Of a stretch of DNA of 35,643 nucleotides, positions 9,637-20,596 are shown piece after piece (positions within the stretch are counted from its first letter, which is position 1; every line of letters begins with the position of its first letter). Position numbers and translations under genes: made by a program. Source of the stretch: Lawsonibacter sp. (lineage in GTDB: Bacteria > Bacillota > Clostridia > Oscillospirales > Oscillospiraceae); NCBI GenBank assembly GCA_022801435.1, contig JAAWSG010000020.1, positions 1 through 35,643 on the forward strand, written 5' to 3'. The notes below the pieces were generated by a model. It was not told the DNA's origin and searched no databases. It saw nothing but the letters and a program-made list of their open reading frames with translations.

Positions 9637-10932
9637 CTATTCCGCCACGGCACAGCCGCCCTGGGGACGGATGTGGAGCACGTGGCACTTGCCCTGACCC
9701 AGAAGCTTCTCCATCCCGGACCGGAAGGAGGTAAGCCTCTCATTGGGGACAAAGGCCTGGACCGTTCCGGCAAAGCCGCCGCCGTGGACCCGGATGGCCC
9801 CTGTTCCCTCCAGCAGCTCCCTGCCCAGGGCCAGCACCATAGGGATGGCCTGCTGCTTCGGCTCGGCAATGGACCAGGTGTTTTGCAGGTGGAGGGCGGA
9901 GGAGAGCCCCGACTGGTTCACCAGGGCCAGGAAGCGGGCAAAATCCCCCTCCTCCAGGGCCTGGGCCTCCTGCACCGCCCGGCGGTCGTCCTCGTAGTAG
10001 TGGAGGGCCCGGAGCACCGCCCGATCCCCGCACCGCACCCGGAGGGAGGGGATGGCCGCTTTAAACTCCTCCTCCGGCACGTCCCGCAGGACCGTTTTGC
10101 CAAAATGGGCCGCCGCCGCCCCCATTTCCCGGGTGATGTCGGCGTAGTCCCCGGTGAGGTCCCCGTGGCTGGAGCAGGTGTCCACGATACACAGGGTATG
10201 CCCCGAGCGGGTGAAGTCGTAGTCCGCCCGCTTCACCACGGGTTCGGCGGGGTCGGCGAAGTCGATGGACACCGCCCCCCCCACGGAGGAGCCCATCTGG
10301 TCCATCAGGCCGCAGGGCTTTCCGAAGTAGACATTTTCCGCATACTGCCCGACCTTGGCGATTTCGATGGGGTCCAGCCGGTCCCCGCAGCAGAAGCGGT
10401 TAAGGATGTTCCCCACCAGCACCTCATAGGCGGCGGAGGAGCTGAGTCCCGAGCCGGAGAGCACGGTGGAGGTCACGCAGGCGTCAAAGCCGGACAGCGT
10501 ATAGCCCAGCTCCCTGAGCCTGGCGGCCACCCCCCGCACCAGTGCAGCGGAGGTGTTGACCTCCTCCGGCTTGACGGTCAGATCCTCCAGCTCCACCTCC
10601 AGGGCGGGGTAGCCCTCGGAGCAGATGCGGATGACATTTTTTCCATTGGGGGCGGCGCAGGCCAGCATATCCATGTCCACGCTGCCGCACAGGACATGGC
10701 CGTGCTGGTGGTCGGTGTGGTTGCCGCCGATCTCGGTGCGGCCCGGTCCGCTGAACAGGGCGGCCTGTCCGACGCCGGGAAAATTCTCCTCCAGGGAGCG
10801 CACTGCGCGGCAGGCTCTCTCTCTGCCGCGGTCCAGGCTGGACCGTGTGCCGTCCAGGGCGTACAGCCCGGCCAGGGCCTGGTCATATCTGCCCTCTTCC
10901 AGGGCTTGGAGCAGTTGTGCGGGGGTGTTCAT
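9637..10932 (-). CDS. galK: Galactokinase
   Basis: Phosphorylates galactose to galactose 1-phosphate with ATP. 431 residues, slightly longer than E. coli GalK because of an N-terminal extension of about 50 residues seen in clostridial enzymes. GHMP kinase motifs: GRTEIGGNHTDHQHG (about 64-78, the galactokinase signature with Gly for the usual Glu), LSGSGLSSSAAYE (about 158-170, ATP loop), the catalytic Asp in GLMDQMGS (Asp211), and RVHGGGFAGTVQAF near the C-terminus. AGGTGA precedes the ATG. It may be transcribed from its own promoter in the 68-bp gap after the lipoprotein gene as well as by read-through. Confidence 0.95.
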   Translation of the reverse strand: MNTPAQLLQALEEGRYDQALAGLYALDGTRSSLDRGRERACRAVRSLEENFPGVGQAALFSGPGRTEIGGNHTDHQHGHVLCGSVDMDMLACAAPNGKNVIRICSEGYPALEVELEDLTVKPEEVNTSAALVRGVAARLRELGYTLSGFDACVTSTVLSGSGLSSSAAYEVLVGNILNRFCCGDRLDPIEIAKVGQYAENVYFGKPCGLMDQMGSSVGGAVSIDFADPAEPVVKRADYDFTRSGHTLCIVDTCSSHGDLTGDYADITREMGAAAAHFGKTVLRDVPEEEFKAAIPSLRVRCGDRAVLRALHYYEDDRRAVQEAQALEEGDFARFLALVNQSGLSSALHLQNTWSIAEPKQQAIPMVLALGRELLEGTGAIRVHGGGFAGTVQAFVPNERLTSFRSGMEKLLGQGKCHVLHIRPQGGCAVAE

Positions 10933-10968
10933 AAGCCGGTCACCTCATATTCATTTTAGGCTGTCTCT

Positions 10969-10997
10969 ATCATAGGACAAGTTGGGAAAAAATGCAA
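10969..10997 (-). promoter_or_regulatory. Candidate internal promoter for galK-galT
   Basis: Minus-strand TTGCAT (10997-10992), exactly 17 bp, TATGAT (10974-10969), lying entirely in the 68-bp gap before galK. Good spacing and hexamers for sigma-A, giving a leader of about 30 nt with AGGTGA before the ATG. Confidence 0.6.
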
Positions 10998-11000
10998 CCC

Positions 11001-12059
11001 TCAGCTGTCCCATTCGTCCCGGAACCGGGCCAGATTTTCCCGGGTGACCGGGAGGTAGGGCAGCCAGACATAGTGCTCCTCCTCCAGCGCCACCGCCTGG
11101 GCCGGGTCCTCCCCGTGGTAGAGGGCCAGCGCCAGGTCCAGCATAGCCTTGGCCTGTCCCTGGGCGTCGTTGAACACTGTGCCGTACAGCTCCCCCGCCT
11201 CCAGGGCCTCCAGGGCGGGCTTGGTGGCGTCGATCCCCACCACCATGGGCCAGTCCTCCAGGGGGCGTTCTGTCTCCTTCAGGGCGTCGATGGCTCCCAG
11301 GGCCATGTCGTCGTTGTTGGACAGGATGACCTCGACCTGCCCGCCGAACTCCTCCAGCCAGCGGGCGGTCCGGGCGGAGGCCTGAGCCCGGTTCCAGTTG
11401 GCGGTGTCCCGGGCCAGCCGCTCCACCTCCACCCCGCCGTCGGCGATGGTCTGGATGGCGTACTCGGTGCGCAGCAGGGAGTCCTGATGGCCTGGCTCCC
11501 CCTCCAGCATGACGTACTGCACCACCCCGTCCCCGTTCCGGTCCCACCGCGCCGGGTCGGAGGTCCAGGCGTTCAGGACCAGCTCCCCCTCCAGGGTTCC
11601 GCTCTCCTGGGCGCTGGCCCCCACGTAGTAGGTGTGCTCCCAGCGCTGGATGTCCTCATCCACCGGCTGGCGGTTGAAGAAGATCAGGGGGACCCCCTCC
11701 GCCTCCGCCTTGTCCACAATCACCGCCGCCCCCGTCCGGTCCACCATGTTGACGCACAGGATGTCGCACCCCCGGGCCAGAAAGCGGTCCACGTGGTCCA
11801 TCTGGGTGGTCTGGTTGTGCCGGCTGTCCGAGATGAACAGGATGATTTTTTGTCCGATGCGGCTCTCCTCCTCCTGGGCCAGCTGCTCCAGGCTCTGGGA
11901 CATGGAGGAGATGAAGGTGTCGTCCTGGCTGTACAGGGTCACGCCAATGCGTAAAATGCCGTCCTCCTCCTCCCCGCCGCAGGAGGGCAGAAGGAGGAGC
12001 AGGGCCAGCAGCAGGCTAAGACGTGACCGGGAAGAGCAGCTTCTGGTTGTCGGGCGCAT
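11001..12059 (-). CDS. Galactose/glucose-binding lipoprotein (MglB-like, second copy)
   Basis: A 352-residue periplasmic-type sugar-binding lipoprotein. Signal peptide with LPSC lipobox (Cys27). Aligned by eye with E. coli MglB it keeps all the known sugar contacts: Asp47, Phe49, Asn104, His191, Asp193, Arg197, Trp222, Asn249, Asp277 and Asn297 (E. coli D14, F16, N91, H152, D154, R158, W183, N211, D236, N256). It also keeps the EF-hand-like calcium loop DRNGDGVVQ at about 173-181. It should therefore bind galactose or glucose. No permease or ATPase gene is adjacent; instead it follows the kinase and the anchored binding protein, so a sensing role is likely, though it could also deliver sugar to MglAC. 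The ATG has GGGGAGG seven bases upstream inside the previous gene, which it overlaps by 44 nt. Confidence 0.85.
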   Translation of the reverse strand: MRPTTRSCSSRSRLSLLLALLLLLPSCGGEEEDGILRIGVTLYSQDDTFISSMSQSLEQLAQEEESRIGQKIILFISDSRHNQTTQMDHVDRFLARGCDILCVNMVDRTGAAVIVDKAEAEGVPLIFFNRQPVDEDIQRWEHTYYVGASAQESGTLEGELVLNAWTSDPARWDRNGDGVVQYVMLEGEPGHQDSLLRTEYAIQTIADGGVEVERLARDTANWNRAQASARTARWLEEFGGQVEVILSNNDDMALGAIDALKETERPLEDWPMVVGIDATKPALEALEAGELYGTVFNDAQGQAKAMLDLALALYHGEDPAQAVALEEEHYVWLPYLPVTRENLARFRDEWDS

Positions 12060-12933
12060 AGATATCCTCCCCTCTCACGATGAAAAAGCTCAGCGGCTCC
12101 AGCTCCTCGGGCTGTCCCCGCACCGCCTGGACCGCCTGACGGACGGCCAGATAGCCGGCGGCGTAGTCGCTCCAGGCGGCCACGGCGGAGATGGTCCGGC
12201 GCTCCAGCTGGGCGGTGACGGCGGTGGAGGAGCCCACCCCGTAGAGGGCAAAGTCCAGCCCCTCCGCTATCTTTTGGGCTCCGGCCCGGCGGGTAGCCCC
12301 CGGCTCGAAGGTCATGACCCAGTCCGCCCCCCGCTCCGGCAGGCCGGCCGCCGTCTCCGCGGGGACTCCGGCCTGGACCAGGGCCTCCAGGGCGGCGTCC
12401 AGACGGGGCCCCGCCTCGGGACAGACCGAGCGGCTGTCCAGCAGCAGCACCTTCCCCCCGTCCCAGTCCTCCAGCAGGGCCTGAGCCAGGGCGCGGCCCA
12501 GCGCCCCTCCGTCCGGCGTCACCGTCCCCGTCCCCCTGTCCAGGCCGGAGCCCAAGCTGACCACCGGGGGCGGGCTGGAGAGCTGGTCCAGGGCGGCGGA
12601 CAGGGAGGCCGTGTCCACCGGGAGGACGATGAGGGCGTCCGCGCCCCCCTCCGCCTCCCGGCGCAGCAGCTCGGCCTGCTCCCGGCTGTCGCTCTGGACG
12701 GTGGGGGTGAGGAAGCGCAGCTCCGCCCCCAGCTCGTCCGCCGCCTGCTCCATCCCCTGGCGGGCGGCGGCGAAGGCGGCGCTGTCCGTGTCCCGGAGGA
12801 GGACGGACAGGGAGAGCAGCCGCGGCTCCCCCCGGTCCCGGAGGAGCTGGGGGATGAGGATGCTCAGCACCACCAGCAGGCCCAGCACCCCCAGGATGAC
12901 AATCTCCACCAGGTTGTTTTTTTGTGTCTTCAT
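12016..12933 (-). CDS. Membrane-anchored periplasmic-binding-protein-like protein
   Basis: A 305-residue protein with one N-terminal transmembrane segment (about 9-28, VEIVILGVLGLLVVLSILI) and no lipobox Cys, followed by a type I periplasmic sugar-binding fold: LSLSVLLRDTDSAAFAAARQGMEQAA at the first helix and GADALIVLPVD as the second strand. Most sugar-contact residues seen in the two MglB-like proteins are absent, and the ligand is unknown. The topology matches XylFII of Clostridium beijerinckii, a membrane-anchored binding protein that signals to a LytS-type kinase. Its ATG overlaps the kinase stop by 4 nt (ATGA), indicating coupled synthesis. I infer that it is the kinase's extracytoplasmic partner. 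A LacI-like regulator is excluded by the lack of a helix-turn-helix domain. Confidence 0.7.
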   Translation of the reverse strand: MKTQKNNLVEIVILGVLGLLVVLSILIPQLLRDRGEPRLLSLSVLLRDTDSAAFAAARQGMEQAADELGAELRFLTPTVQSDSREQAELLRREAEGGADALIVLPVDTASLSAALDQLSSPPPVVSLGSGLDRGTGTVTPDGGALGRALAQALLEDWDGGKVLLLDSRSVCPEAGPRLDAALEALVQAGVPAETAAGLPERGADWVMTFEPGATRRAGAQKIAEGLDFALYGVGSSTAVTAQLERRTISAVAAWSDYAAGYLAVRQAVQAVRGQPEELEPLSFFIVRGEDIYAPDNQKLLFPVTS

Positions 12934-14741
12934 AGCACCTCCCCCTGCTGCACACAGGCGGCCTGCTCCCGGGTGAGGGCAGGCAGGCGGATGCGGACCA
13001 GGGTCCCCTCGTCCGGCTCGCTGAGGATGGTCAGGCCGTAGGGCTCCCCAAAGGTGAGGCGGATACGCTGGTGGACGTTGCGCACCCCGATGCCCGAGCC
13101 GCTGCCGCCGGTCTGGGCCCCGCCCTCCTTCAGCAGGCCGGCCACCGTCTCCGGCGGCATCCCTGTGCCGTTGTCCTGCACGTCCACAATCAGGTCCCCG
13201 TCCTGCCGGTAGGCGGAGACCCGGATCTCCCCGTCGTCCTCCGCCCCCGCCATGCCGTGGTAGATGGCGTTCTCCAGCAGGGGCTGGACGATGAGCTTCA
13301 GGGTGTACAGCTCCCCGGTTTCCTCCTGGGCCTCAATCCGGGCGGTGAACCGGTTTTTGAAGCGGATCTGCTGGATGTTCATATAGTGCCGGGCGTGGTC
13401 CAGCTCGTCGGACAGGGGGATGATATTTTTCCCCTTGCTCAGGGAGATGCGGAAGAACCGGGCCAGGGAGGTAACCATCCGGATGGCCTCCTCCTGCCGC
13501 CCCGACTCCACCATCCAGATGACCGAGTCCAGGGTGTTGTAGAGGAAGTGGGGGTTGATCTGGGACTGGAGCACCTGGAGCTCGCTGCGGCGCTTCTGCC
13601 CCTCCTGCTGGATGACATCCTGCATCAAGTGGCGCATGGTGGACACCATGGAGCGCACCGAGCGGCTCAGGTGCTGCACCTCATAGCAGCCCCCCTCCTC
13701 AATCTCCACGTCCAGCCCCCGCTCCAGCGCCTTCACCGACTGGTCCAGCCGGCGGATGGGGTCGGAGATGCGGGCGGAGATGAGAAAGTTGAGGAAGGCC
13801 ATGAGAAAGATGGCGAAGAGGAGGAGGGACAGGCCGAACAGGAGCATCTGGGAGGAGCCGGTGAGCCGGCCGGAGGCGGGAGTGACTCCCACCAGCTTCC
13901 AGCCGGTGTAGCCCACCGTCTTGACCGTCACCTGGCGGGACTGGCCCTGGAAGCTCTCGGTGTGGCTTCCGTCCCGGTAGGCGGCGGCGGCCTGGTTGTT
14001 CTCCTCCAGCAGCCCGGCATAGATGAGCTGCTGCCGGGGGTGGTAGATGAGCTCCCCGTCCTTGTCGATGAGGTACAGATAGCCCCCGTTGGCCAACTTC
14101 ACATCCCGGCACACCTGCTCAATCCCGCTGAAGCCCATGTCCACCAGCAAGACCCCCCGCTCGGTGACCCCGTTCCGGGTGAGCTCCACATGGTGGCTCA
14201 GGGAGACCACCCAGCGGTAGGGCAGGTCGGGGTCGTCAAAGATGTTCTGCACGTGGGGGGTGGAGAAGTGGAGGTTCTCCATGTTCCGGCTGGCCTCCTG
14301 GAACCACTCGCTCCCGGCGGGGCTGGCGCTCTCCTTGAGGGTGGCCAGGGGGACGGCGGAAATCAGGCCCCCCTCCCCGTCGAAGACCGCCAGGGAGACC
14401 AGGTCGTCCCGGTTCTCCTCATAGAGCAGCCCCAGGGCCTCGGTGTAGCTGCTCTCGGCCAGGTCGGTGTTTTTGATGACCCGATAGTACACCGTGTCCG
14501 CAATGCGCATCATCCGGCGCAGGTAGCTGTCCAGGCTCAGGTTGGCCTGGGCCAGGACTCGCTGGCTGTTCTCCGCCACAAGCTTCTCCGTGGAGGAGGT
14601 GAAGCGCCAAATGAGGCTCCCGCCCATCAGCAGGATGCCCGCCGCCGCCACCGCGGTGAAGGACAGGGAGAGCACCATCTGAATGCTCATCTTCCGGTAT
14701 CGCTCCCCCCACTGGACGGCCAGGTCGTGAAAAACAGACAT
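12930..14741 (-). CDS. YesM-type sensor histidine kinase
   Basis: A 603-residue membrane kinase of the YesM/LytS-like His_kinase family. TM1 is about residues 20-46, then a large extracytoplasmic dCACHE-like sensor domain (about 50-295, with YLYLIDKDGELIYHP), TM2 about 298-322, a HAMP linker (ISARISDPIRRLDQ), the phosphoacceptor region QINPHFLYNTLD (His398), the N box PLLENAIYHG and the ATP-binding glycine motifs DNGTGMP and GSGIGVRNVHQRI. The ATG follows GGAGGGGATCGTT. It lies directly after the response regulator gene (36-bp gap) and overlaps the anchored binding protein gene, so these products probably form one sensing unit for galactose or a related sugar. Confidence 0.93.
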   Translation of the reverse strand: MSVFHDLAVQWGERYRKMSIQMVLSLSFTAVAAAGILLMGGSLIWRFTSSTEKLVAENSQRVLAQANLSLDSYLRRMMRIADTVYYRVIKNTDLAESSYTEALGLLYEENRDDLVSLAVFDGEGGLISAVPLATLKESASPAGSEWFQEASRNMENLHFSTPHVQNIFDDPDLPYRWVVSLSHHVELTRNGVTERGVLLVDMGFSGIEQVCRDVKLANGGYLYLIDKDGELIYHPRQQLIYAGLLEENNQAAAAYRDGSHTESFQGQSRQVTVKTVGYTGWKLVGVTPASGRLTGSSQMLLFGLSLLLFAIFLMAFLNFLISARISDPIRRLDQSVKALERGLDVEIEEGGCYEVQHLSRSVRSMVSTMRHLMQDVIQQEGQKRRSELQVLQSQINPHFLYNTLDSVIWMVESGRQEEAIRMVTSLARFFRISLSKGKNIIPLSDELDHARHYMNIQQIRFKNRFTARIEAQEETGELYTLKLIVQPLLENAIYHGMAGAEDDGEIRVSAYRQDGDLIVDVQDNGTGMPPETVAGLLKEGGAQTGGSGSGIGVRNVHQRIRLTFGEPYGLTILSEPDEGTLVRIRLPALTREQAACVQQGEVL

Positions 14742-14777
14742 AACGATCCCCCTCCTGAGTGCTCCGGGGCGTCCCCT

Positions 14778-16388
14778 CTAGGACGGAGTCTTCCCGCCGG
14801 CCCGGAATTTAGACGGCGACACCCCGAAGTGCCGCTTGAAGACGTAGCTGAAGTAGTTGGGGTCGGCGTACCCCGTCTGTCCGGCGATGAGGTAGGTCTT
14901 CTCATCCGTGTCCCGGAGCAGCCGGGCGGCCTGCTCCATGCGCACCTCGGTGACATAGGCGGTGAAGGTCATCCCCACCTCCCGCTTGAACAGGGTGGAG
15001 AAGTAGGTGGGGGACAGGTGGAGGTGGGAGCACAGGCAGTCCACGCTCAGCGTCTCGTCGGCGTAGTGGCCGGCGATGTAGTCCTTGGCCTGCTCCACCA
15101 TGCGCCCGGCGGAGTCGGTGCGCTGGCGGCCCAGCAGCTCCCGGAGGCGGAGGCAGCGCTCCTCCAGCCACCGGCCCAGCTCCTCCGGCCCGGAGAAGTC
15201 GGACACCGGGACCGCGCCGGTGAAGTTTTTGCCGAACACCTCCTCCACCGCCACGCCCCCCAGCCGGGCCAGCCGCACCAGGCAGGTGACCAGCTCCAGC
15301 AGGAAGAGGCGGCACTGGGCCAGGGACAGCCCCGCCTGCCCCAGCCGCTCCATCAGCCCCCGGACCGCCTGCTCCACCTGCTCGGGGGAGCCCAGCTTGA
15401 CGGCGGCGGACAGAGCCCGCTGGTCCGCCTCCTCAAAGGAGAGCTCGGCGGCGGGCTGCTCCTCCAGGTCCCCGATGTAGAGCACCCGGTCCTTGCCCAT
15501 CAGCACCCGGTAGTCCAGGGCGGAGCGGGCCTCCTCCACACTGCGGTGCAGCTCCTCCGGTCCGGGGCAGAGGCGGCCCACCCCGGCGGCCAGAGAGACC
15601 CCCAAATAGCTCTGGGACAGGCGGGACAGCCGCTCCAGCTCCTCCAGCAGGGGATAGAGCCGGTCCTCCCCGGACAGCTGGACCAGCAGCGCCGCCGCGT
15701 CCCCGTAGAGCACCGTCCGGACGCCGCAGCCCTCCAGGGCGAAGTGCTCCTCCAGGAAGGACTGCACCGACAGCAGCAGCAGCTCGTCCCGGTCCTCCTC
15801 CCCCTCCCCGGGCAGGTCCGCGTGGACCAGGGCGGCGGTCCACAGGCCGGGGCGCAGCTCAATCTCATACCGGGCGGCCCGGTCCTGGATCTGCTCGGGC
15901 GGCAGCTGTCCCCCCAGCAGGCGGGTGTAGAACAGCTCCCGGAGGACGGGCAGGCTCTCCTCATACCGGCGGCGGAGGGTCTCCATATCCCGCCGCTCCA
16001 GCCGCTGGCGGTCCAGCTGTTCCCGCAGGCGGGTCAGCACCTGGGACAGCTCGGGGGCGTTGATGGGTTTCAGGATATACTCCGACACCCCCATGCTCAC
16101 CGCCTGCCGGGCGTACTCAAAGTCGTCAAAGCCGGAAAAAACCACCAGCCGCGCCCCGGGCAGGGACTGGCGCAGGCGGCGGCACAGCTCCAGCCCGTCC
16201 ATGAAGGGCATTTTTATGTCGGTGAGCACCACATCGGGCCGCAGCTGCTCGGCCAGCTCCAGGGCCTCCTCCCCGTTGCCCGCCTCCCCCACCAGAGAGA
16301 AGCCCAGGGCGCTCCAGTCGATTTTCAGGCTGATGCCGGTGCGGATCTCCTCCTCATCGTCCGCCAGCAGGACGCGGTACTCCTCCAT
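14778..16388 (-). CDS. AraC-type response regulator (YesN-like)
   Basis: A 536-residue two-component regulator. The receiver domain (1-120) has the acidic pocket ADDEEE (Asp10, Asp11), phosphoacceptor Asp57 in LTDIKMPFMDG and the conserved Lys in YILKPINAPEL. A long middle region of about 300 residues links it to a C-terminal AraC/XylS helix-turn-helix pair (about the last 100 residues, SPTYFSTLFKREVGM and PNYFSYVFKRHFGVSPSKFR). Such regulators normally activate a sugar transporter operon, here presumably mglBAC upstream. The start is the ATG at 16388 with GGAGGGAG five bases before it; a start ten codons earlier would cross that ribosome site. Only about 30 bp separate it from the upstream terminator. 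Confidence 0.92.
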   Translation of the reverse strand: MEEYRVLLADDEEEIRTGISLKIDWSALGFSLVGEAGNGEEALELAEQLRPDVVLTDIKMPFMDGLELCRRLRQSLPGARLVVFSGFDDFEYARQAVSMGVSEYILKPINAPELSQVLTRLREQLDRQRLERRDMETLRRRYEESLPVLRELFYTRLLGGQLPPEQIQDRAARYEIELRPGLWTAALVHADLPGEGEEDRDELLLLSVQSFLEEHFALEGCGVRTVLYGDAAALLVQLSGEDRLYPLLEELERLSRLSQSYLGVSLAAGVGRLCPGPEELHRSVEEARSALDYRVLMGKDRVLYIGDLEEQPAAELSFEEADQRALSAAVKLGSPEQVEQAVRGLMERLGQAGLSLAQCRLFLLELVTCLVRLARLGGVAVEEVFGKNFTGAVPVSDFSGPEELGRWLEERCLRLRELLGRQRTDSAGRMVEQAKDYIAGHYADETLSVDCLCSHLHLSPTYFSTLFKREVGMTFTAYVTEVRMEQAARLLRDTDEKTYLIAGQTGYADPNYFSYVFKRHFGVSPSKFRAGGKTPS

Positions 16389-16419
16389 AGCTCCCTCCAT
16401 TCTTGCGCGGCGCGCCATT

Positions 16420-16450
16420 AAAAAGGGGCCGGCGCGGTCGCGCCGGCCCC
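16420..16450 (-). terminator. Terminator between the transport and sensor genes
   Basis: GGGGCCGGCGCG (16425-16436) and CGCGCCGGCCCC (16439-16450) are perfectly complementary; on the minus strand the stem is followed by T5. This should end most mglBAC transcripts. It lies 31 bp before the response regulator start, leaving little room for a separate promoter, so the sensor genes may depend on partial read-through. Confidence 0.85.
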
Positions 16451-16463
16451 ACAGACCATTGGT

Positions 16464-16637
16464 TCAGCGGTTCAGAATGCCCAGAGCGATCACTCCCACC
16501 AGGGCGGCAACACACAGTCCGATGAAAATATCCAAATATTTCAGGGGCACTCTGCGAAAATTCTCATAAAAGTTCTCAAAGGCGTTGAGCTGGCTGCGGT
16601 CGGGCCGCTCCTCCAGCCGCTTTTCGTCCCGGTCCAT
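16464..16637 (-). CDS. 57-residue single-span membrane protein after mglC
   Basis: A small protein with a charged N-terminal half (MDRDEKRLEERPDRSQ), an aromatic stretch (AFENFYENFRR), then one transmembrane helix (about residues 34-54, YLDIFIGLCVAALVGVIALGI) and a short NR tail. Its ATG overlaps the mglC stop as TAATG, so it is translationally coupled to the permease, and it is the last gene before the mgl terminator. I do not recognise a family. Coupling and topology suggest a small subunit or stabiliser of the transporter, which is inference. The predicted orientation puts the charged N-terminus in the cytoplasm. Confidence 0.75.
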   Translation of the reverse strand: MDRDEKRLEERPDRSQLNAFENFYENFRRVPLKYLDIFIGLCVAALVGVIALGILNR

Positions 16638-17641
16638 TACTTCTTGGCCAGGTACTTGCGCAGGTCAAGGGCCACGGCGATGATGATGACCAGGCCCTGG
16701 GCCACGAAGGTGTAGGCGGGGTCCACGCCCAGGAACTGCAGGCAGATTTTCAGGGCCTCGAAGACCAGCACGCCCACCAGGATGCCCGACACCCGGCCCA
16801 CGCCGCCGTTGGCGGAGACGCCGCCGATGGTACAGGCCGCGATGGCCTCCAGCTCATAGCCGAAGCCGGTGGCGGTGGAGGCGCCGCCCGCCTTGGCCCC
16901 CACCAGGAAGCCGGCCAGTCCGTACATCATGCCCGCCAGCAGGTAGATGCGGATGATGGTGGCGGTGACGTTGACGCCGGCCACCTGGGCGGCGGACTCG
17001 TTGCCGCCGATGGCGTACATGTACTTGCCGTGGCGGGTCTTGTTGTACAGGAAGAGGAAGTAGATGCCCACCAGGATAGCAAAGATAGCCAAATAGGGGA
17101 GCACACCCCCCACCGAGCTCCGGGCCACGTCGGAGTAGCTCTCCTTAAACCCGCCCAGAGGCTGGTTGTTGGTAATGATCTGGCAGGCGCCGTAGACGAT
17201 GGTCTGCATACCTAGGGTAGCGATAAAGGGGGGGACCTTCAAAAAGGCGATGACGCAGCCGTTGATGCCGCCGATGACCCCCATGATGATCATGACGATA
17301 ATCAGGGCCACGATCCAGTGGATGTCGGGGAACCAGGGGAGCATCCGGGCGGCGTAGGTGATGTCCTGAAGCATCATGGCGGACAGACAGGCGGCCAGGC
17401 CCACCTGACGGCCGGCGGACAGGTCTGTTCCCTTGGTAATCAGACAGCCGGACACACCGCAGGCAATGATGAACCGGGGGGACATGTTGATGAACAGGTT
17501 GCTGAAATTCCGGGGGGTAAAGAAGTTCTTGGTGGTCAGTCCAGTGATGATGGCCAGGAGCAGCACCAGCAGGATGATGGCGTTGTCCGACATGAATTTC
17601 AAAAGATTAAAGCCATTGGCCTTGTCCATTTTTTTCTCCAT
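16637..17641 (-). CDS. mglC: Galactose/methyl galactoside ABC transporter permease
   Basis: A 334-residue inner-membrane permease of the BPD_transp_2 family (MglC/RbsC type) with eight or more hydrophobic helices. Landmarks include ISGCLITKGTDLSAGRQVGLAA near residues 55-80 (degenerate form of the usual GIDLSVG motif), NGCVIAFLKVPPFIATLGM, and AIAACTIGGVSANGGVGRVSGILVGVLVFE, all typical of galactoside permeases. It forms the channel for MglB-delivered sugar with MglA. The ATG follows AGGAGAGAACACT and lies 15 bp after mglA; its stop overlaps the small membrane protein start. Substrate is assigned from family and from the galKT context. Confidence 0.93.
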   Translation of the reverse strand: MEKKMDKANGFNLLKFMSDNAIILLVLLLAIITGLTTKNFFTPRNFSNLFINMSPRFIIACGVSGCLITKGTDLSAGRQVGLAACLSAMMLQDITYAARMLPWFPDIHWIVALIIVMIIMGVIGGINGCVIAFLKVPPFIATLGMQTIVYGACQIITNNQPLGGFKESYSDVARSSVGGVLPYLAIFAILVGIYFLFLYNKTRHGKYMYAIGGNESAAQVAGVNVTATIIRIYLLAGMMYGLAGFLVGAKAGGASTATGFGYELEAIAACTIGGVSANGGVGRVSGILVGVLVFEALKICLQFLGVDPAYTFVAQGLVIIIAVALDLRKYLAKK

Positions 17642-17656
17642 AGTGTTCTCTCCTCC

Positions 17657-19165
17657 TTACTCAAACTGGGTCGCCAGGGCCATGATGTTCTCCTGATTGG
17701 CGTCTTTGCCGTCGATAAAGCCGGTGACCCGGCCGTCGCACATGACCATGATGCGGTCCGCCATGCCGATCAGCTCGCTCATCTCAGAGGAAATCATGAT
17801 GATGCTCTTGCCCTGCTTGGCCAGCTCGGCGATGATGCAGTAGATCTCATACTTGGCCCCCACGTCGATACCTCGGGTGGGCTCGTCCATAATGAACACG
17901 TCCGGGTCGTTGGCCAGCCAGCGGCTGATGAGCACCTTCTGCTGGTTGCCGCCGGACAGGGTCTGGATCTGGGTCTTGGAGGAGGGGGTCTTGATGGACA
18001 GCTTGGCCACGTTGTCCTGGACCAGCTTCTCAATCTTCCCGTCGTTGAGCATGATGCCCGCCACCAGGTACTGGTCCAGGGAGGCGATGGACACGTTGTC
18101 CGCGATGGACAGCACCCCCAGGATGCCGGTGGCCCGCCGGTCCTCGGTGAGCAGGGCGATGCCGTTTCGGATGGCGTCCTGGGGCTGGTTGATCTTCAGC
18201 TCCTTGCCCTTATAGACGATGCGACCGGCGCTGTGGCAGCGCAGGCCGAACAGGCCCTCCATCAGCTCGGTGCGCTGGGCCCCAACCAGGCCGGCCACCC
18301 CCAAGATCTCCCCCTTGCGGACGCTGAAGGTGGCGTGGCGGAAGCTCTTGGGGTTGATGGAGGTGAAGTCCTCCACCTCAAAGACCGCCTCGCCGGGGAT
18401 GTTCTCCCGCCTGGGGTAGAGGTTGGACAGCTCCCGGCCCACCATCTTGGTGATGATGAAGTCGGTGGTCAGCTCCTTGGCGCTCCAGGTCCCCACGTAC
18501 TGGCCGTCCCGCATGATGGTGACCTCGTCGCTGATACGCAAAATCTCGTCCATCTTGTGGCTGATGTAGACGATGGACACCCCCTTGCTCCGCAGCTCGT
18601 TGACGATGGTGAACAGGGCCTCCACCTCGGCGGCGGTGAGGGAGGAGGTGGGCTCGTCCAAAATCAGCACCTTGCAGTCGGCGGAGACGGCCTTTGCGAT
18701 CTCCACCAGCTGCATCTGGGAGACGCTGAGGGTCCCCAGCTTGGCCTTGGGGTCGTAGTTCAGGTGGACCTCCTGGAGCACCTTGGCCGCGTCCTGATAC
18801 ATTTTCTCGTGGTCGATGAGCTGCATGGGTCCGAAGTGCCTGACCGGGTAGCGGCCCACATAGATGTTTTCCCCGATGGAGCGCTCCGGGATGGGCTGGA
18901 GCTCCTGATGGACCATGGCGATGCCCCGGTTCAGGGCGTCCAGAGGTCCGTTGATCTGGACCCGCTGGCCCTCATAGATGACCTCTCCCTCGTCCATGTG
19001 ATAGATGCCGAACATGCACTTCATCAGGGTGGACTTCCCCGCGCCGTTCTCCCCCATCAGGGCGTGGACAGTACCGGGGCGGAGCTTGAGCTGGGCGTGG
19101 TCCAGGGCCTTGACCCCGGGGAAGGTCTTGACCACCCCGCTCATTTCCAAACGATATTCTGACAA
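17657..19165 (-). CDS. mglA: Galactose/methyl galactoside ABC transporter ATPase
   Basis: A 502-residue double-domain sugar ABC ATPase of the MglA/RbsA type. First cassette: Walker A GENGAGKST (about 38-46), signature region LSVSQMQLVEIAKA and Walker B VLILDEPTSSL. Second cassette: a degenerate Walker A around GLVGAQRTE, signature LSGGNQQKV and VFIMDEPTRGIDVGAK. This asymmetry is normal for the family. The start is a TTG at 19165 with GAGGGGG nine bases upstream; the next ATG, seven codons in, has no ribosome site. It is separated from mglB by a 178-bp gap holding stable stem-loops. Confidence 0.95.
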   Translation of the reverse strand: MSEYRLEMSGVVKTFPGVKALDHAQLKLRPGTVHALMGENGAGKSTLMKCMFGIYHMDEGEVIYEGQRVQINGPLDALNRGIAMVHQELQPIPERSIGENIYVGRYPVRHFGPMQLIDHEKMYQDAAKVLQEVHLNYDPKAKLGTLSVSQMQLVEIAKAVSADCKVLILDEPTSSLTAAEVEALFTIVNELRSKGVSIVYISHKMDEILRISDEVTIMRDGQYVGTWSAKELTTDFIITKMVGRELSNLYPRRENIPGEAVFEVEDFTSINPKSFRHATFSVRKGEILGVAGLVGAQRTELMEGLFGLRCHSAGRIVYKGKELKINQPQDAIRNGIALLTEDRRATGILGVLSIADNVSIASLDQYLVAGIMLNDGKIEKLVQDNVAKLSIKTPSSKTQIQTLSGGNQQKVLISRWLANDPDVFIMDEPTRGIDVGAKYEIYCIIAELAKQGKSIIMISSEMSELIGMADRIMVMCDGRVTGFIDGKDANQENIMALATQFE

Positions 19166-19204
19166 ATCACGGTTCCCCCTCTCTTACAGTTCTCCCGTTC
19201 CCTC

Positions 19205-19325
19205 TGCGCGGGGCCGGGAGCGGCGTCGCTATGCGCGGAATAAGCTGCGGGCACACTGTCTCCCGCGGTTTGCCCCGCGCACAAGATATAATGCAGGGTG
19301 CGTGCGCACCTGCGCACGCACCCTG
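19205..19325 (-). other. Stem-loop structures in the mglB-mglA gap
   Basis: A perfect 15-bp inverted repeat, arms 19294-19308 and 19311-19325 (CAGGGTGCGTGCGCA and its complement), with only two bases between, follows the mglB stop. A second perfect 10-bp pair, TGCGCGGGGC (19205-19214) and GCCCCGCGCA (19272-19281), closes a 57-nt segment. No T-run follows on the minus strand. Such structures between a binding-protein gene and its transporter genes often stabilise the upstream message or cause partial termination, so the binding protein is made in excess. Confidence 0.7.
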
Positions 19326-19343
19326 AAGGTTCCGGAATACCGA

Positions 19344-20402
19344 TTACATGAAGTCGCCCACGTTGTCGGGAGTGACCTTCACATAGTCAACATAGACGCT
19401 CTGGTTGCCGGAGCTGAAGGTAGCGCCGCCCAGCAGAGCCTCCATCTGGTTGACCGCCTCGGTGGCCTGGCCCACGGCGTCGTTGAGCACGGTCCCGGTC
19501 ATGTTGCCGTTGCTGACCTCGTTCAGAGCGGCGTCCAGGGCGTCCACGCCCACCAGATAGATGTCCTCGTTGACCTTGCGGCCGGCGGCCTGGATGGACT
19601 GGAGGGCGCCGATGGCCATGTCGTCATTGTTGCAGAACACGACCTCGATCTGGTCGCCGTACTGAGCCAGGTCGTTGGCGCAGATGGTCTGTCCCTTCTC
19701 ACGGTCCCAGTCGCCGCGCTGCAGGTCCAGCTGCTCCACTTCCATGCCGGCGTCGGTCAGAGCCTTGACGGAGAACTCGGTGCGGTACTGGGCGTCGATG
19801 TTCTCAGGGTCGCCCTGGATCATGATATAGGAGATCTTGCCGTCGCCGTTGATGTCGCCCTTGTTGGGGGTGTCCAGGATGAGCTCGCCCTGCATGGTGC
19901 CGGACTGGCGGGCGTCGCAGCCCACATAGACCAGCTTGTCATAGGCGGCCATCTGCTCGGCGGTGGGCTCACGGTTGATGAGCACAGTGGGGATACCGGC
20001 GGCCTTCACGGTGGCAATGATGGAGTCGGCGGCGGAGGTCATGCAGGGGTTGATGATGAGGGCGTCCACCCCCTGGGTAATGAAGGTGTTGATCTGCTCG
20101 TTCTGCTTGGACTGGTCGTTGTTGCCGTCCACGGTAAGGGGCTTGTAGCCCTTGCTCTCCAGGATCTCCTCCAGGGCGTTGCGGTAGGTGGTCATGAAGG
20201 CGTCATCGAACTTGTAGATGCACACGCCCACGGTTCCGCCGCCCGCGGGGGCCTCGGGGATGGAAGAGGCCGCGCCGGGCTGGCTCTGGCTGGCCCCACC
20301 CGGGGCAGGGGTGCTGGACTTATCCCCGCCGCCGCCGCCGCAGCCGGCCAGCAGGCCCAGGGACATCACAGCGGCAAGGGCAAGCGCAAGTGCTTTTTTC
20401 AT
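19344..20402 (-). CDS. mglB: Galactose-binding lipoprotein of the MglBAC transporter
   Basis: A 352-residue sugar-binding lipoprotein. Signal peptide ends in LLAGC (Cys21), followed by a Gly/Ser/Pro-rich linker and a type I binding fold. By eye against E. coli MglB the contacts are kept: Asp67, Phe69, Asn118, Asp203, Arg207, Trp232, Asn259, Asp287 and Asn308. The position of E. coli His152 is Asn201, a change not found in the second binding protein at 11001-12059. The calcium loop DINGDGKIS is at about 183-191. AGGAGG precedes the ATG. First gene of the galactose locus; its sequence and codon use suggest high expression. Confidence 0.93.
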   Translation of the reverse strand: MKKALALALAAVMSLGLLAGCGGGGGDKSSTPAPGGASQSQPGAASSIPEAPAGGGTVGVCIYKFDDAFMTTYRNALEEILESKGYKPLTVDGNNDQSKQNEQINTFITQGVDALIINPCMTSAADSIIATVKAAGIPTVLINREPTAEQMAAYDKLVYVGCDARQSGTMQGELILDTPNKGDINGDGKISYIMIQGDPENIDAQYRTEFSVKALTDAGMEVEQLDLQRGDWDREKGQTICANDLAQYGDQIEVVFCNNDDMAIGALQSIQAAGRKVNEDIYLVGVDALDAALNEVSNGNMTGTVLNDAVGQATEAVNQMEALLGGATFSSGNQSVYVDYVKVTPDNVGDFM

Positions 20403-20498
20403 TCTTGGTTCCTCCTACAATTTCATTTCTTTTGCGGGACAGAGCAGACGCGTCCTGACCCACGCTCCCCATTTTAGCGCAGCTCTGCCGCAAAAACG

Positions 20499-20527
20499 AT
20501 AGAAAATTCTTGGATGTTCTATGAAAA
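20499..20527 (-). promoter_or_regulatory. Weak candidate promoter of mglB
   Basis: Minus-strand TTTTCA (20527-20522), 17 bp, TTCTAT (20504-20499). The -10 and the sequence ending the -35 region form a small inverted repeat ATAGAA/TTCTAT. An alternative -10, TAAAAT at 20476-20471, lacks a good -35, as expected if an activator such as the AraC-type regulator is needed. Confidence 0.3.
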
Positions 20528-20596
20528 AACTAAGATTTCTCTTCCCGCCCGCCCCTGCCATTCCCTGGAAAGGGGCTGTTCAAAGGGAGCGGAACG

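Follow-up and report, generated by a model that had tools for sequence, protein, structure and literature searches.

A candidate four-component galactose switch in Lawsonibacter: two binding proteins with one YesM-type kinase

The window analysed here, a stretch of 35,643 nucleotides (nt) of contig JAAWSG010000020.1 from Lawsonibacter sp. (GCA_022801435.1, a draft genome of 2.45 Mb in 108 contigs, 81% complete), carries a galactose locus in which a two-component system is encoded together with two proteins of sugar-binding fold. An open reading frame and Pfam check places all genes of the locus, mglB through galT, on the minus strand (Table 1). The transport genes mglB, mglA and mglC are followed by genes for a small membrane protein, a response regulator (RR), a histidine kinase (HK), an anchored binding-protein-like protein (BP1) and an MglB-like lipoprotein (BP2), and then by galK and galT. 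A preliminary description of the locus had given this order on one strand, and it holds; the span 10933..20402 assigned to it there leaves out galK and galT, though these run in the same direction. HK and RR form a YesM/YesN pair: HK has His_kinase (PF06580) and HATPase domains, RR has Response_reg and an AraC helix-turn-helix (HTH). As in three-component systems, a gene for a sugar-binding fold lies directly beside the YesM/LytS-type kinase and the AraC-type regulator. The HK and BP1 genes share 4 nt (ATGA), the BP1 and BP2 genes 44 nt. The kinase itself possesses a large dCache ectodomain, which the preliminary description had passed over.

Table 1. Genes and sequence features of the galactose locus (positions in the window)
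Feature	Position	Strand	Basis or remark
mglB, transport galactose/glucose-binding lipoprotein	19344..20402	-	Pfam Peripla_BP_4, E 4e-55; distances track MglA/MglC
mglA, sugar ABC transporter ATPase	17657..19165	-	Pfam ABC_tran
mglC, permease	16637..17641	-	Pfam BPD_transp_2
Small membrane protein, 57 amino acids (aa)	16464..16637	-	seen beside window-type transporters only
RR, YesN-type response regulator	14778..16388	-	Pfam Response_reg, GGDEF_2-like, AraC HTH
HK, YesM-type histidine kinase with dCache ectodomain	12930..14741	-	dCache_1, His_kinase, HATPase; HAMP under cut-off
BP1, membrane-anchored binding-protein fold	12016..12933	-	N-terminal helix, without lipobox; Peripla_BP_4, E 2e-20
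BP2, MglB-like lipoprotein	11001..12059	-	lipobox ends at Cys27; Peripla_BP_4, E 9e-54
galK, galactokinase	9637..10932	-	Pfam
galT, galactose-1-phosphate uridylyltransferase, provisional start codon	8126..9688	-	Pfam
Terminator-like hairpin, 11 G-C pairs then TTTTT, between transporter genes and RR	16425..16450	-	hairpin scan
14-bp hairpin with weak T tail, between mglB and mglA	19294..19325	-	hairpin scan
Putative operator AGTTTTTTC-N12-AGAATTTTCTATCG, direct-repeat half-sites at 21 bp, then a TAAAAT -10-like box	20497..20531	-	cross-locus comparison

Relatives were collected by searching a species-genome collection with two peptide patterns of the kinase sensor region. The best 80 of 306 loci, i.e., the closest relatives of the kinase (53-85% identical), were kept, and the following counts refer to them. 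The preliminary description had proposed to look in relatives for the order kinase, anchored binding protein, MglB-like lipoprotein. This order is kept in 77 of the 80 loci: BP1 directly follows HK in 78, and BP2 directly follows BP1 in 77. The exceptions are explained by contig ends, two loci stopping early (L108, L054) and a third contig (L120) ending within BP1. In L120 the kinase frame (9998-11818) is in two pieces, either a disrupted gene or a sequencing error. The 4-nt overlap of HK and BP1 is retained in 69/78 loci, and BP1 is present in L063, L085, L110 and L118 too. Because the order recurs in 77/80 loci, the arrangement is beyond chance. RR-HK-BP1-BP2 are contiguous in nine of the 15 neighbourhoods retrieved (L035-L043), and a BP1 search at E 1e-5 gave a match in 28/200 genomes of the family. 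The nearest named relatives of the kinase carry the labels Oscillospiraceae, Oscillibacter and Lawsonibacter; carriers of the module include isolates named Pseudoflavonifractor phocaeensis, Anaerotruncus colihominis, Fournierella massiliensis and Clostridium beijerinckii. Judged by gene order and domains, the HK-BP1-BP2 system is a variant of the binding-protein-assisted two-component systems, and its arrangement is widespread among relatives. Clostridium-type loci (L111, L112, L114, L125, L127, L129) have one or two extra MglB-like genes 3' of BP2.

With which genes does BP2 evolve? Pairwise protein distances were correlated over the 59 of 81 loci in which all seven genes are complete. BP2 distances correlate with those of HK and RR (r 0.94 each) and far less with those of MglA (r 0.40, falling to 0.25 once HK is allowed for). 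BP1 behaves likewise (r 0.92 with HK, 0.35 with MglA). MglB distances track MglA (r 0.96) and MglC (r 0.95), and hardly HK (r 0.42). After removal of six divergent loci the values for BP2 are 0.91 with HK and 0.30 with MglA. Thus, the locus consists of two separately evolving blocks. In the 68 loci with mglA the same signalling block accompanies two main transporter lineages, the window type in 24 loci and another in 38, and divergent transporters in 6. In a tree of 43 sampled BP2 and MglB rows BP2 is a single clade (21 rows) separate from MglB, with a value of 99 in the Shimodaira-Hasegawa-like approximate likelihood ratio test (SH-aLRT). By these distances and groupings BP2 is a protein which evolves with the kinase rather than with the transporter, and has no tie to one particular transporter. 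The mglBAC genes between the upstream repeat described below and RR (16637-20402 in the window; also L036-L043) belong to at least two lineages, with MglA about 52-55% identical, as if swapped in place. The single-helix protein of 57 aa 3' of mglC was seen in 13 rows (12 distinct loci), every one with a window-type MglA.

The sugar pockets of the two binding proteins differ. Pocket positions are given here in the numbering which we take to be that of the E. coli galactose-binding protein. The nearest solved structures of BP2 are MglB/galactose-binding proteins (phmmer, best E 1.6e-85). Y10, D14, F16, N91, H152, D154, R158, W183, N211, D236 and N256 are each kept in 77-78 of 78 BP2 sequences; at the Ca site four positions are kept in 76-77/78, and a fifth carries Asn in 61 sequences or Ser in 16. 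On these residues BP2 is a member of the MglB/galactose-binding protein family, with its predicted galactose/glucose pocket intact. The pocket of the transport MglB varies more, with H152 replaced by Asn in 60/65 and N256 by Gln in 36/65. Of all these positions BP1 retains R158 alone (79/79). Y10 is replaced by Arg (77/79), N91 by Glu (72/79), N211 by Glu or Asp (79/79) and D236 by Gly (78/79), and the position of W183 is gapped in 72/79. A profile alignment agrees on the BP1 mapping at Y10, N91, R158, N211 and D236. The fold is that of the sugar-binding proteins by structure prediction and fold search (predicted local distance difference test, pLDDT, 93.2). Opposite charges at positions 47/210 and 128/177 of BP1 are conserved and nearly invariant, which leaves nothing for covariation, and the BP1 of the window has Gly at 128. 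Perhaps these charges form a salt-bridge lock across the cleft which holds BP1 closed. The BP1 set A4 comprised 72 of 79 sequences, near-copies and one sequence with an unsure start being omitted.

Related loci with a simpler system were compared at the same positions. We interpret as three-component those rows in which the kinase is followed by a binding protein and a member of the BP2 clade is absent (23 rows, 22 distinct loci). In all 23 the first binding protein retains D236, N211 and R158, and carries Asp at the N91 position. Thus, the first binding protein after the kinase has an intact pocket in 23/23 three-component rows, whereas BP1 does not. In 14 four-component rows compared alongside, the Asp236 position is Gly in 13, Asn211 is kept in 0 and Arg158 is lost in 2. 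A simple lipobox pattern, which misses some evident lipoboxes and flags 11 of the 23 three-component rows, matched 0/79 BP1 and 0/14 four-component rows; by eye, a lipobox is apparent in all three-component binding proteins except L047, L170 and L181. In a quick IQ-TREE of 59 kinase rows, rooted on seven other YesM-type kinases and omitting the short kinase L185, the 29 four-component rows group in a single clade with an SH-aLRT of 99, next to the 23 three-component rows, with long branches flagged. The tree is consistent with a single origin of the four-component type among three-component systems, and with a single origin the conservation counts are not independent events. The kinase set A5 held 50 of 81 kinases. 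Loci L035-L042 partly duplicate L050-L129, L161 equals L049, and L172 and L093 are apparently the same contig; pocket counts from the two sets are therefore not summed. A separate class (L044, L046, L160-L166, L193, L194) consists of RR, kinase, a first binding protein with intact pocket, a divergent second one and MglA; it has an unusually long permease (about 550 aa), in some loci followed by galK and galT.

Upstream of mglB the cross-locus comparison revealed a direct repeat, AGTTTTTTC-N12-AGAWTTTTCTATCG, whose half-sites are 21 bp apart; after another 20 bp comes a TANAAT-like -10 box. Exactly one site is present in 56 of the 62 loci which reach this region and none in the six divergent loci, the count being made with a weight matrix for which 54 of these mglB sites had been the training set. 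The repeat occurs with either main transporter lineage. Whole-genome counts used a plain pattern, the reversed control of which gave 0 matches. The window genome has a single copy, at 20497-20531. Eight of nine other module genomes have one copy (one with 3 mismatches), and the ninth, G160, has none. Among 119 relatives drawn the same way the repeat is found in 21 and the kinase in 21. Twenty of them have both, G221 has only the kinase, G227 has only the pattern (with 3 mismatches), and the other 97 have neither. Further copies which would widen the regulon were sought in the window genome, the nine module genomes and the 21 matching relatives, and at most one copy per genome was seen. The repeat thus tracks the kinase and occurs once per genome, and we infer that it is the predicted binding site of the regulator. 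A repeat search within the mglB upstream sequence returned no direct repeat at the thresholds used, the repeat being seen by cross-locus comparison only, and a promoter scan flagged no promoter at the site. An operator pattern with an 11-base gap had 0 matches; its two words actually stand 10 bases apart.

A hairpin with a T run lies between mglC (or the small protein) and RR in 50/69 gaps, compared with 6/78 RR-HK gaps (lengths unmatched). In the window the distance from the hairpin to the RR start is 36 nt, which suggests read-through and a low, feedback-driven expression of the sensing genes. In the mglB-mglA gap a hairpin with a T run is present in 32/65. The hairpin is strong and alike in close relatives; it may raise mglB expression over that of mglA.

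From these comparisons we infer the following course, ligand, protein contacts and direction of signalling included. BP2, a relative of MglB, would bind galactose (or glucose) as the receptor. In its loaded form BP2 would signal to the dCache kinase by way of BP1 or jointly with it; BP1 is anchored, has presumably lost sugar binding and would work as an adaptor or lock. The kinase would then phosphorylate the YesN-type regulator, which in turn would bind the 21-bp direct repeat beside the -35 region of the mglB promoter and turn on mglB-mglA-mglC. Read-through of the frequent terminator-like hairpin would extend expression to the system's own genes, RR, HK, BP1 and BP2, and perhaps to galK-galT. 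To this four-component galactose switch, read from sequence comparison, we assign a probability of about 0.6. The preliminary description had suggested that two binding proteins serve as sensors. For BP2 a sensor role is well supported by its predicted pocket and its co-evolution with the kinase; for BP1 the lost pocket speaks against it. The evidence points to BP1 as an adaptor with sugar binding lost, a different ligand being the main alternative. More tentatively, and at somewhat less than even odds, BP1 is a pseudo-receptor: the sugar sensor of an ancestral three-component system would have become an anchored adaptor or lock and detection would have passed to a relative of the transport binding proteins, in about one event, the product of which is now present in several families of its order and in Clostridium.

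Several observations weigh against the proposed switch. galK was detected in just 30 of the 80 loci retrieved, many of which are short. Immediately 5' of galK in the window is a promoter-like match (10980-10953; 5 in the region versus 1.5 expected), which leaves open that galK-galT could have their own promoter. The six divergent loci and G160 are without the repeat as modelled, and the co-occurrence of repeat and kinase is partly linkage because both share one operon. Since the mglBAC genes adjoin each other and BP2 is near HK, whole-block exchange alone could yield the distance pattern without direct contact. In 16 of the 23 three-component rows the next gene encodes a binding protein which heads transporter genes, and which in our reading is the transport protein. 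L183, a deep four-component relative, retains the Asp236 position, and L043 and L184 lack Arg158. The BP1 of the window has Gly at a site which is Glu in 72/79. The dCache domain of the kinase could bind a ligand directly. Finally, BP1 may bind another ligand, because its altered cleft is conserved rather than decayed (Arg47 in 77/79, Glu/Asp210 in 79/79).

The last point leads to the strongest rival, in which BP1 too is a receptor: BP2 would bind galactose/glucose, BP1 some other ligand, and the kinase would integrate two signals. Conserved cleft residues in an intact fold (pLDDT 93) agree with it, as does the fact that both binding proteins of the streptococcal LevQRST system affect sensing in the account given by PMC3043104. 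Yet BP1 has replaced the Asp236 and Asn211 positions which 23/23 three-component rows keep, and the Trp183 position is gapped in 72/79; we regard a second receptor as unlikely. Less probable still is that BP2 serves MglAC as a second binding protein for transport, the kinase being served by BP1 only or by its dCache domain alone. A full transport-type pocket and a lipoprotein nature like that of MglB are what such a protein would have. Its distances, however, track HK and RR (0.94) and not MglA (0.40), and the same module accompanies different transporters (24 window-type, 38 other, 6 divergent).

The least probable of the three, with a slim chance, is that the kinase senses directly via its dCache domain and that both binding proteins merely modulate or buffer. 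CuaS, the kinase of a cellobiose system, may weakly sense cellobiose without its binding protein CuaD, according to the relevant passages of PMC10384115, and the nearest folds of the HK ectodomain are ligand-binding dCache domains of chemoreceptors. Against this stand the binding-protein genes, present in each of the 80 closest loci whose contig extends far enough, and their distances, which track the kinase. LuxPQ-like and ChvE/VirA-like complexes were considered as well; LuxQ is not among the 50 listed fold matches of the ectodomain, which excludes nothing.

Among known systems, XylFII-LytS-YesN of Clostridium beijerinckii is alike in that a binding protein is encoded with a kinase and an AraC-type regulator, and BP1 matches XylFII by profile and fold (structures 5xss/5xsj). 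XylFII-LytS-YesN reportedly senses through a single binding protein whose xylose pocket works; here there are two binding proteins, the anchored one is degenerate and an MglB-like receptor is added. GanP/GanPST and AraP/AraPST of Geobacillus stearothermophilus likewise join a sugar-binding protein to a kinase and a regulator, and are said to have one sensing binding protein each. The fold matches 6guq, 6gt9 and 6sw4 are the GanP/AraP set, and according to structure entry titles GanP binds glucose and galactose. The present module appears to go beyond a single sensing binding protein: BP2 follows BP1, and its distances track HK.

The CuaDSR system of Ruminiclostridium cellulolyticum is a three-component system for cellobiose with one sensing protein, a lipoprotein that binds cellobiose with high affinity, as described in PMC10384115. 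It shares with the present locus a dedicated sensing binding protein apart from the transport one; a second sensing protein does not figure in that description. The discussion of the same paper states a separation of sensing and transport proteins also for systems in C. beijerinckii and G. stearothermophilus. The closest precedent is LevQRST of Streptococcus mutans, in which a kinase, a regulator and two ABC-type sugar-binding proteins act as one sensor, for fructose/mannose; the relevant sections of PMC3043104 give the order levTSRQ, with the binding proteins flanking and no ABC transporter genes nearby, and predict LevQ to be membrane-anchored and LevS to have at most five transmembrane segments with little outside the membrane. 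Compared by description, both systems have two sugar-binding proteins with one kinase-regulator pair, one of them anchored (BP1 here, LevQ by prediction), and here gene order and distance correlations indicate that both binding proteins co-evolve with the single pair. The differences are the order RR-HK-BP1-BP2 instead of a flanking one, the adjoining mglBAC, one lost pocket, and a kinase which is not of the multi-segment LevS type: its dCache_1 domain (residues 52-285) sits between two hydrophobic stretches. The novelty claimed in the preliminary description was thus too strong, LevQRST being a published two-binding-protein precedent; what stands is that searches of open-licence PMC papers listed none on a galactose system in which a single kinase has two binding proteins. 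Binding-protein-to-kinase sugar systems have so far been known one by one. The HK-BP1-BP2 family offers a natural series, from an intact first binding protein in three-component systems to a degenerate one plus an MglB-like receptor in the four-component type. Together with a candidate operator and a readout operon it lets one study how a receptor may turn into an adaptor and how a transport-type protein may be recruited into signalling, and it predicts how many Oscillospiraceae-type gut bacteria turn on galactose uptake.

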